64,000 nucleotides of DNA from Spirulina subsalsa FACHB-351 (lineage in GTDB: Bacteria > Cyanobacteriota > Cyanobacteriia > Cyanobacteriales > Spirulinaceae): NCBI RefSeq assembly GCF_026130165.1, contig NZ_JAIHOM010000004.1:1-64000 (forward strand), given 5' to 3'. The translations under genes and the position numbers were made by a program. Position 1 is the stretch's first letter; every line of letters starts with the position of its first letter. Under the pieces are notes generated by a model that saw only the letters and a program-made list of their open reading frames with translations, did not search any database and was not told the DNA's origin. This document shows positions 12,739-36,512 of this stretch, piece after piece.

Positions 12739-13084
12739 GGCCGGGGTTAAAAACTCTCTACTCTCTACTATCTCTAATCAGTGACCCCTCTCCCGTGACA
12801 CCGCATACAATAAATCGTGAACTTCGTCAATATCTAAGATGATGTAAATTACATGACCTATGAGATCAAGTATCCATGAATTTGTGATTTAAATCACTGA
12901 CTCCATTCATTTTTGGGGTAGTCCTGCCCGTCAAAAAATATTGACTAAAGGGTTACAAGGGAGGTAAAGAAGTTTGTTCTTTTGTCATCAATCCTTAATA
13001 TTGCGGCCATTTTCTCTGAGAATGGCTTGACAACGCCGAATATTCGGTTATTCTAATAGTCGAGTGTGAGGAGAAAGTAAGAGG

Positions 13085-13128
13085 AAGCACTCGGGGTCGA
13101 AACAAGGACAGACTCCCGGGTGCTTTTT
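13085..13128 (+). terminator. Intrinsic terminator 1 of tandem pair
   Basis: A 12-bp stem with one or two G-U pairs, a loop of about 17 bases, then TTTTT. Confidence 0.7.
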
Positions 13129-13130
13129 CA

Positions 13131-13164
13131 AAGAGCTAGCTTGGCAACGAGCTAGCTTTTTTTT
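13131..13164 (+). terminator. Intrinsic terminator 2 of tandem pair
   Basis: AGCTAGC (13134-13140) pairs with GCTAGCT (13151-13157) and extends through A-T pairs, with a 10-base loop and eight T. Confidence 0.8.
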
Positions 13165-22162: not shown

Positions 22163-22603
22163 ATGGACATACAATTTCGTGAATTCAACCCCTTTGATCT
22201 GTGGATTTGGCTAGAATTTGAAAATATTCCCTCCCCCTTGGAACAGCAATATGTCGAGGAACTCTTCAATTCTTGGTTCTATTTGGGCAAATTAGGAGGG
22301 TTCAACGGGGAAAATCTACAGGTGACAGAAACCGGAGTTGATATTAGTTATATGGAGTATAATCCGGCGATCTCAGAAGCCGCTATGATGGCTCCAATGC
22401 ACAATATGAGTGATTTTGAATATGCAGGAACTTGGGGACGTTGTTGGCTGGATTTAGGCACCAGTGATTTAATCGCCGTTGATGTTTTAATTAATGCTCT
22501 GACCCAACTGAGTCGGGAATATCTCACCCTGCGTCAGGTTATTATTGGGGGAGTGAATGAAGATTGGCCAGTGGATCGTCGCAGTGCAGCAATTTTCAAT
22601 TAG
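22163..22603 (+). CDS. DUF3531 family protein
   Basis: A 146-residue acidic protein conserved in cyanobacteria and plastids, with IQFREFNPFDLWIWLEF at the N-terminus and WGRCWLDLGTSDLIAVDVLINAL in the second half, the DUF3531 pattern. No catalytic motif is visible; plant homologs are chloroplast-targeted. It is followed by the structured region at 22621-22937. Confidence 0.75.
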   Translation: MDIQFREFNPFDLWIWLEFENIPSPLEQQYVEELFNSWFYLGKLGGFNGENLQVTETGVDISYMEYNPAISEAAMMAPMHNMSDFEYAGTWGRCWLDLGTSDLIAVDVLINALTQLSREYLTLRQVIIGGVNEDWPVDRRSAAIFN

Positions 22604-22620
22604 CGGAATCCCCCAACGAT

Positions 22621-22937
22621 AACCGCCCATCCCTAGGCTGAAAGGGGACTGTGACCCCAATAAAAGTGAGGTCGTAGGGGAATTTCGGTCACGGCTGTGT
22701 TATCCTACTGTTATCCTCAAAAGGATTTACGGAGAGGCACCCCGGAAGTAACGCCCAAGTTGGAATCAACCAACTAGATTAGTTAACCAGCCTAATCTGA
22801 AGATACGAGTCAGTAGAGGTCAGTGCCGCTCAGTCTGGGAATCCAATTGGATTGGAATGCAGAGCTAGTAATATCTCTGAGAATCTAGAGCGATAAGCCT
22901 AACTTATTGCTCCAGAGGTTCAATAACCAGTGGTCTT
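22621..22937 (+). ncRNA. Highly structured RNA candidate, HEARO/omega-RNA-like
   Basis: At least seven helices can be drawn in about 280 bases: CTGTGACC/GGTCACGG (22649-22694), ATCCT-CAAA-AGGAT (near 22713), AGTTGG/CCAACT (22758-22775), AGATTAG/CTAATCT (22776-22798), TCCAAT/ATTGGA (22842-22856), GAGCGATAAG/CTTATTGCTC (22888-22912) and GGTT/AACC (22917-22928). The ordered motifs CCCCGGAAGTAACGCC and GCGATAAGCC, and the position directly ahead of a reading frame, recall HEARO RNAs (the omega RNAs of IscB systems). No IscB gene follows. Alternative: an unrelated cis-regulatory leader of the downstream gene. Confidence 0.5.
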
Positions 22938-23318
22938 ATGGCTAGACGAAAGAAACAGTTTCCTTGCGGTCACAAGGGGTATGGTCAGACCTGCCACCGA
23001 TGTGCGCAAAAAGAAGAAGATCGGGAGCGGAAAAAGCGGGAGAAAAAATCGTGGGAGGCCACTTTTGCCCACGATGCCATTGACCTGAGTGAACTACCTA
23101 AAAATGTGGTGATTAAAGCTAGACATATTATCACCAGCCTGCAACAACAGCAAGATTATCGCCAATTTCGCGGTAAACGACTGCGCCACGACCGTTTTGT
23201 AATTAGTATTCCTGTCACCCGAAATTACCGTCTGATCTGTCGAGATCATGGCAATTTAGTCATTCCAGAAGCGGTAATTTCCCATGAAGATTACAATGTT
23301 TGTAAGCCCGGTAGTTAA
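22938..23318 (+). CDS. Cys/His-rich small protein with RelE-like C-terminus
   Basis: A 126-residue basic protein. The N-terminus has CGHKGYGQTCHRCAQ, a likely zinc site of the DUF7682 type, then a highly charged helix (about 25-42). The C-terminal 75 residues, with RGKRLRHDRFVISIPVTRNYRLIC, look like a RelE/ParE-type mRNase or toxin fold, though no catalytic set is certain. No antitoxin is evident. There is no Shine-Dalgarno sequence before ATG 22938, and the upstream structured RNA ends ten bases before it, so translation may depend on that RNA. Confidence 0.65.
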   Translation: MARRKKQFPCGHKGYGQTCHRCAQKEEDRERKKREKKSWEATFAHDAIDLSELPKNVVIKARHIITSLQQQQDYRQFRGKRLRHDRFVISIPVTRNYRLICRDHGNLVIPEAVISHEDYNVCKPGS

Positions 23319-35823: not shown

Positions 35824-36512
35824 TAATAGGCGATCTTGACAAGTTAAGACCCAAAGTTAGAAAAATTCTTGGTATAGCTTTTTGTCGATTTTCTTCTTTC
35901 GCTTCTTCACTTAGCTCCCCTGTGAAATAGGTTCGCCTCGATTCTGGCTGAAGAGGATTAGTCAACAATCTCTTGAGGGATGCTTTCTGCCCTAAGTTTG
36001 TGTTATAGTCAATCAGTATTTTCGGTTCTGGTGGGGAGCAGCCATCAGACGTAAGGGGGAAAGTCCGGTGCAAATCCGGCGCTGTCCCGCAGCTGTGAGG
36101 AGAGCAAGCACTCTCTCAGTCAGAATGCCCGCCGAATAGTCTCCTCTGGAGATGCGCGAACTTGTTCTATTTCGTCTGCGAGGTACGGATGATAATGTCT
36201 AAAAGCTTTTCTGAATTTATCTTTAAAGGTCGATTTCACCAAAAGCAGGAAAAATCGACCAGCAAAATAGTTTTAGGGAGAGAACAAATCCCCTCAAAGC
36301 TTTCTCTGTTCCCTAATATCAACTAATCCTTTATAGAGCGTTACAGCTTACTGCTCTTTGCACCGGAATGAATCGCAGAAATGCGCTCCGTTTTTGCTAC
36401 TTTTTTTTGCCTTAAAACGTGACTATTATGAACTTTAGAAACCAGAATAAAATCCAGATTGTCTCCCCAAATTATCGGGTAAAGATAAACCAACTTCTAT
36501 GGGGGGATAGTT
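35824..36512. other. Long leader with riboswitch
   Basis: Contains the cobalamin riboswitch and then a 290-base leader with an inverted repeat GGTCGATTT/AAATCGACC (36228-36260) and a T-rich hairpin ending at about 36412. One of these could be the expression platform. No reading frame is supported between 35824 and 36512. Confidence 0.6.
36015..36195 (+). promoter_or_regulatory. Cobalamin (B12) riboswitch
   Basis: The core elements are in order: AGCCATCAGACG near 36040, GGGGGAAAGTCCGGTGCAAA with TCCGGCGCTGTCCCGCAGCT (36055-36093), a GAGAG hairpin, and the B12-box-like TCAGAATGCCCGCC (36120-36134), ending in GGTACGGATGATAATG. This is the cobalamin aptamer family. It is read in the plus direction toward the gene at 36513. 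Confidence 0.9.

Follow-up and report, generated by a model that had tools for sequence, protein, structure and literature searches.

The stretch at positions 22621-22937 of the window, by which we mean the whole 64-kb piece of DNA analysed here, occupies the interval from the stop codon of a DUF3531 gene (22603) to the start of a gene at 22938 (Table 1). An earlier note had described it as an orphan structured RNA of the HEARO type, i.e. an IscB omega-RNA lacking its protein gene, and had quoted two strings said to occur in the same order in published IscB omega-RNAs. Both strings are present and in the order claimed, CCCCGGAAGTAACGCC at 22740-22755 and GCGATAAGCC at 22890-22899; the latter is one arm of a hairpin at the right end of the region and reads GCTATAAACT in the copy of a sister genome, and it is therefore not a conserved motif. 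The ORF at 22938 is also present and, as the note had stated, does not encode IscB: Pfam assigns to it a DUF7682 zinc domain followed by a ParE_like domain, and no IscB/IsrB ORF (RRXRR) follows the RNA. Its start lies 25 bases past the last strong hairpin, which ends at 22912, and the spacing of ten bases given for it holds approximately for a weak stem of four pairs. Compared with shuffled sequences, the folding energy corresponds to a z-score of -2.1 for the whole region, -2.9 for 22690-22937, and -2.7 for the sister copy. Because 5 of 80 sampled 250-base windows from the 64-kb window also fell below -2.1, folding energy on its own is weak evidence of structure.

The earlier note had recommended running the HEARO covariance model (RF02033) over 22600-22940; the model gave no match there, either at its gathering score or at E<=10, and no match anywhere in the whole genome. 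As positive controls, we used 20 IscB loci from the order and 11 RRXRR loci of the same family. The model scored 76-167 bits at all 20 IscB loci and 46-129 bits at six of the 11 RRXRR loci, including two IsrB-like genes of the sister genome; several of the other five are fragments. HEARO RNA is likewise an OMEGA guide scaffold of IS200/IS605-type elements, and the general resemblance of OMEGA scaffolds to each other, together with the IscB/IsrB elements in the sister genome, could be taken to favour an orphan HEARO, that is an IscB or IsrB omega-RNA. However, HEARO is located 5' of iscB while the RNA studied here coincides with the 3' end of a tnpB remnant, and both the order of the parts and their neighbours agree with tnpB and not with IscB. 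Because the model finds nothing at E<=10 while it scores well at the cyanobacterial IscB/IsrB controls, we reject the HEARO identity at the sensitivity of RF02033 and regard it as extremely improbable. Other Rfam models match the window at a Cyano-1 sRNA at 13060-13131 and, above the gathering score, a cobalamin riboswitch at 36006-36150. At a HEARO/IscB element of another locus (L175), a Cyano-1 RNA overlaps the 5' edge (1225-1295), as might be expected from an insertion of the element into or beside the gene for this sRNA; the IscB guide would then come from Cyano-1.

At the DNA level, the region was detected elsewhere only in one other genome of the genus (the sister genome, 79% identical), and a search of plasmids, phages, and viral contigs for similar DNA returned nothing; a literature search for the motif CGGAAGTAACGCC returned only an unrelated paper. 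A covariance model built from the window and sister sequences (R1) was searched in 196 genomes, and its best two non-self matches were the 3' coding ends of tnpB genes (L192/L198 and L193); R1 also matched the same spot in several of thirty additional TnpB loci. The homologous copies in related genomes that the earlier note had suggested looking for thus exist, as the sister copy and as tnpB 3' ends. The RNA overlaps the 3' coding end of tnpB, being homologous to L192, L193, L199, and others, and codons of a TnpB tail remain in it: the tails of the TnpB proteins read ...KVTxKxEST..., and a disused frame in the window has a similar ...LRRGTPEVTPKLESTN ahead of its stop. A second model (R3), made from 12 cyanobacterial tnpB 3' ends with the window and sister sequences excluded, scored 45.6 bits (E 4.2e-9) at the scaffold core, its sole hit in the 64-kb window, and 27.6 bits at the sister copy; it also recovered held-out tnpB loci and found nothing strong at IscB loci.

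A lack of covariation among homologs would, according to the earlier note, have spoken against a structured RNA. In an alignment of 24 scaffolds, itself fitted to the model, 96.8% of the cells are paired, 19 of the 23 pairs vary on both sides, and none of 500 shuffles reached as high a value; the covariation looked for is thus present, but it is that of a tnpB-type RNA. In RNAalifold, a twelve-sequence alignment (A6) from which the window was left out gave 13 of 23 pairs that vary on both sides. One stem illustrates the pattern, in that its loop AATCAA is constant and its arms differ, with AGTTGG/CCAACT in the window, AATCTG/CAGATT in L198, and AACCTG/CAGGTT in L199. The predicted structure at 22703-22844 is established by covariation with tnpB 3' ends and not by folding energy. 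Chance folding of ordinary intergenic DNA, with which a z-score that is unremarkable among stretches of the window would agree, is contradicted by the independent match of R3 and by transposon ends shared with related elements, and we dismiss it as having practically no probability. Based on homology and covariation, we identify the structured RNA as the omega-RNA scaffold of TnpB and not of IscB or HEARO. The description as an orphan structured RNA consequently stands in so far as an omega-RNA without an adjacent protein gene is recognized by the tnpB 3'-end model, and fails in its assignment to the HEARO/IscB type. The tnpB 3'-end scaffolds of L198, L199, L232, and L234 had no match in Rfam 15 at E<=0.1, and they seem to represent a cyanobacterial TnpB scaffold class without a curated Rfam model.

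Table 1 Positions of the features at the locus, numbered along the window
Feature	Position	Strand	Basis
CCATC, presumed target / transposon-associated motif at the left boundary	22627..22631	+	Inferred from four left ends
Left end (LE), IS200/IS605	22632..22689	+	Subterminal hairpin 22650-22656 / 22670-22676; left-end alignment
Predicted omega-RNA scaffold core, TnpB-type, overlapping tnpB 3' coding remnant	22703..22844	+	R3, covariation, TnpB-like tail
Scaffold stem CCCA 22754-22757 / TGGG 22836-22839	within 22754..22839	+	Helix of the covariation alignment
Scaffold stem AGTTGG 22758-22763 / CCAACT 22770-22775, loop AATCAA		+	Helix of the covariation alignment
Right end (RE): GAATCTA, hairpin 22888-22897 / 22903-22912, terminal AGAGGTTCAA	22881..22923	+	Shared with L198, L199
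Putative 16-nt guide, host flank TAACCAGTGGTCTTAT	22924..22939	+	Analogy with ISDra2; overlaps the start codon of the next gene
Host gene, DUF7682 zinc-binding + ParE_like, outside the element	22938..23318	+	Pfam; 144/196 genomes

The sequences that flank the scaffold match the two ends of known elements. L198 is a complete element with tnpA (Y1_Tnp, on the opposite strand) and tnpB (OrfB_IS605, TNB), and L199 is an intact tnpB element. The left ends of both carry AAGGGTACTGCG followed by a hairpin, and the window has AAAGGGGACTGTGACC at 22641-22656 (zero occurrences expected by chance) with a matching arm at 22670-22676. Among 245 loci, this left-end motif was present only in the window copies, L198, L199, and L016, the last being a second occurrence in the same genome (G000:C130:3338-3367) ahead of a terminator-like hairpin. 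In the window, L016, L198, and L199, CCATC precedes the AGGG-ACTG of the left end by 11-13 bases, and from these four ends the exact left boundary would lie directly after CCATC. On the right, L198 and L199 also end in GAATCTA, a hairpin, and AGAGGTTCAA, the terminus found at 22914-22923; the pattern GAATCTA..AGAGGTTCAA occurs once in the window and in none of 100 shuffles. Between the two ends there is neither an ORF nor a tnpB body. Because both ends match those of L198 and L199, we interpret 22632-22923 as a relative of these elements from which the core was deleted. The element has lost tnpA and about nine tenths of tnpB and has kept its ends and the scaffold; the terminal hairpin of the right end finishes in TTCAA, and the presumed site before insertion would be CCATC joined to TAACCAGTGG. 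Altogether, we consider it highly likely that 22632-22923 is an internally deleted IS200/IS605 element, a PATE-like relic that contains no HEARO RNA and whose scaffold is most likely inert.

Elements of this anatomy are known. A PATE-like element of Halanaerobium hydrogeniformans has a left-end hairpin, no tnpA, a short tnpB tail, and a complete right end (PMC7290912), and the relic shares this build of an IS605-type ancestor minus its core. The PATEs of Haloquadratum walsbyi arose by core deletion, and their palindromes have often been struck by other mobile elements (PMC3119063), as has the sister copy of the relic. The relic differs from these PATEs in being cyanobacterial, in occurring as a single copy, and in carrying a different TnpB/omega-RNA subfamily in its right end. 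Like PATEs, it has subterminal palindromes related to IS605-type ends, no transposase, and a deleted core, whereas the multiplication or movement in trans that also characterizes them is not seen; because it is present as a single copy and at the same site in the sister genome, we refer to it as a PATE-like relic. The expectation in the earlier note that a lone guide scaffold would be something new does not hold, given that gutted IS200/IS605 elements were already known; the relic is a known kind of gutted element and a new cyanobacterial example of it.

The relic occurs once in its genome, and the sister genome (G001) carries it at the same insertion site. Because the insertion is shared at the same place, the core deletion is probably older than the separation of the two species, and the relic would have been immobile since. 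Within the left end of the sister copy lies the remnant of a different TnpB element (L019:831-1222), and the right end of that element recurs many times in the genome of the window. We considered this remnant as the relic's own tnpB and rejected it, as its TnpB family is a different one, with a repeated right end of its own, and as it is situated within the left end of the relic. Between the window and the sister, the core differs at 23 of 227 sites (10.1%), which is lower than the 64 of 244 (26%) at four-fold sites of DUF3531 and the NifS-like gene (p 6e-6) but equal to the four-fold sites of the adjacent ParE-like gene (5/49) and close to nearby intergenic DNA (12/151). The slower change relative to the four-fold sites of DUF3531 and the NifS-like gene could indicate some constraint on the core; a local effect is as likely, the ParE-like gene having the same low rate. 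As the core evolves no more slowly than its immediate surroundings, we do not claim selection on the RNA. The stems are largely intact, which speaks against taking a loss of function as certain.

The position of the RNA directly upstream of the DUF7682/ParE-like gene and on the same strand would also suit a cis-acting leader RNA that regulates this gene, and many relatives of the gene do have a short hairpin right before the start codon. However, across 196 genomes of the order the gene is present in 144, often with a NifS-like gene behind it, and neither R1 nor R2 found a copy of the RNA upstream of 40-odd of its homologs; moreover, the DNA search finds the RNA only in the genus, and its homologs elsewhere are tnpB 3' ends. 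We therefore dropped the cis-regulatory leader, which we consider very unlikely, and, for the same reason of a gene widely conserved without the RNA, a type III toxin-antitoxin RNA ahead of a ParE-like toxin. The proposal that the scaffold had become coupled to the downstream gene fails likewise, because models of the RNA match nothing upstream of these homologs and the gene only flanks the right end; that the ParE-like gene follows the last hairpin is a by-product of the place where the transposon landed. The DUF7682 + ParE_like homologs surveyed (L048-L127) are mostly single-copy and often near a NifS-like gene, and the short hairpin before the start codon that many of them have varies in sequence; such a gene is untypical of a toxin-antitoxin pair.

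In ISDra2, the RNA bound by TnpB comprises the 3' end of tnpB and the right end, its last ~16 nt being a guide derived from flanking DNA, and cutting by TnpB of the site emptied by excision has been proposed (PMC8612924). The layout of the RNA in the relic is the same as that of the ISDra2 reRNA, with a guide that would come from the 3' flank; unlike in ISDra2 (PMC8612924), the element contains no TnpB, the sequence of the scaffold and the probable target motif differ, and the RNA is a predicted one. By analogy, an intact relative would transcribe its tnpB 3' end and process it to an omega-RNA with flanking DNA as the guide, and TnpB would cut the empty site after excision, thereby preserving the element. 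Because the element has no tnpB body, it carries an orphan scaffold and not a working system. The guide, which by the same analogy would read TAACCAGTGGTCTTAT, is matched nowhere else in the genome when up to 3 mismatches in 18 nt are allowed. A search for promoter-like sequence gave no match.

We also considered that the orphan scaffold is still in use: a TnpB from another place in the genome would take up its transcript in trans, and the scaffold would either keep the relic in place or affect the ParE-like gene via the guide over the start codon. The mostly preserved stems are consistent with this, as are a TnpB that the same genome encodes intact (484 aa; G000:C51, L232), which belongs to the same broad family and has a related scaffold, and the many apparently mobile ORF-less copies with such a scaffold in a related genome. 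Against this, the cognate L198/L199-type subfamily was not found in the genome; the nearest resident TnpB is 43% identical to the query and differs in scaffold and right end; a TGAG/CTCA hairpin of the sister carries a mismatch in the window; and constraint is no higher than in neighbouring DNA. We consider use in trans unlikely. Because neither a second site matching the guide nor a cognate TnpB was found in the genome, no promoter-like match was seen, and the scaffold and right end of the nearest TnpB differ, the scaffold of the core-deleted element has most likely been inherited vertically as an inert relic ahead of the ParE-like gene, and we infer that it has no present function. Two other TnpB-type scaffolds in the same genome (L239, G000:C52:6418-6551, and L236, G000:C143:93250-93369) have a tnpB that is missing or truncated.

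R3 also detected six near-identical ORF-less elements in one genome (L234, L238, L240, L242, L243, and L244 in G004) and two with the same scaffold type in another (L233 and L237 in G011). These elements are about 380 bp long with TTAC before the left end, most copies terminate in GAGTGTCAA (a TCAA right end), and the 3' flank, and with it the guide, differs at every site; they are apparently recently mobile scaffold-bearing PATEs. We speculate, while holding it doubtful, that some IS200/IS605 elements are RNA-only parasites that have dropped tnpA and tnpB, keep a functional TnpB guide scaffold, and depend on TnpA and TnpB in trans, with the G004/G011 elements as active examples and the element in the window as an old, immobile one. 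Such a parasite would be moved by TnpA acting in trans and guarded at the donor site by TnpB acting in trans.

The analysis corrects a plausible HEARO label and indicates that a simple core deletion can yield an orphan guide scaffold. Because Rfam 15 has no match for the TnpB scaffolds of cyanobacteria tested here, such relics are easily mistaken for new regulatory RNAs; they are detected with the alignment and model from this analysis. The apparently mobile ORF-less scaffold copies in G004 offer a route to testing whether TnpB protects transposons that do not encode it.
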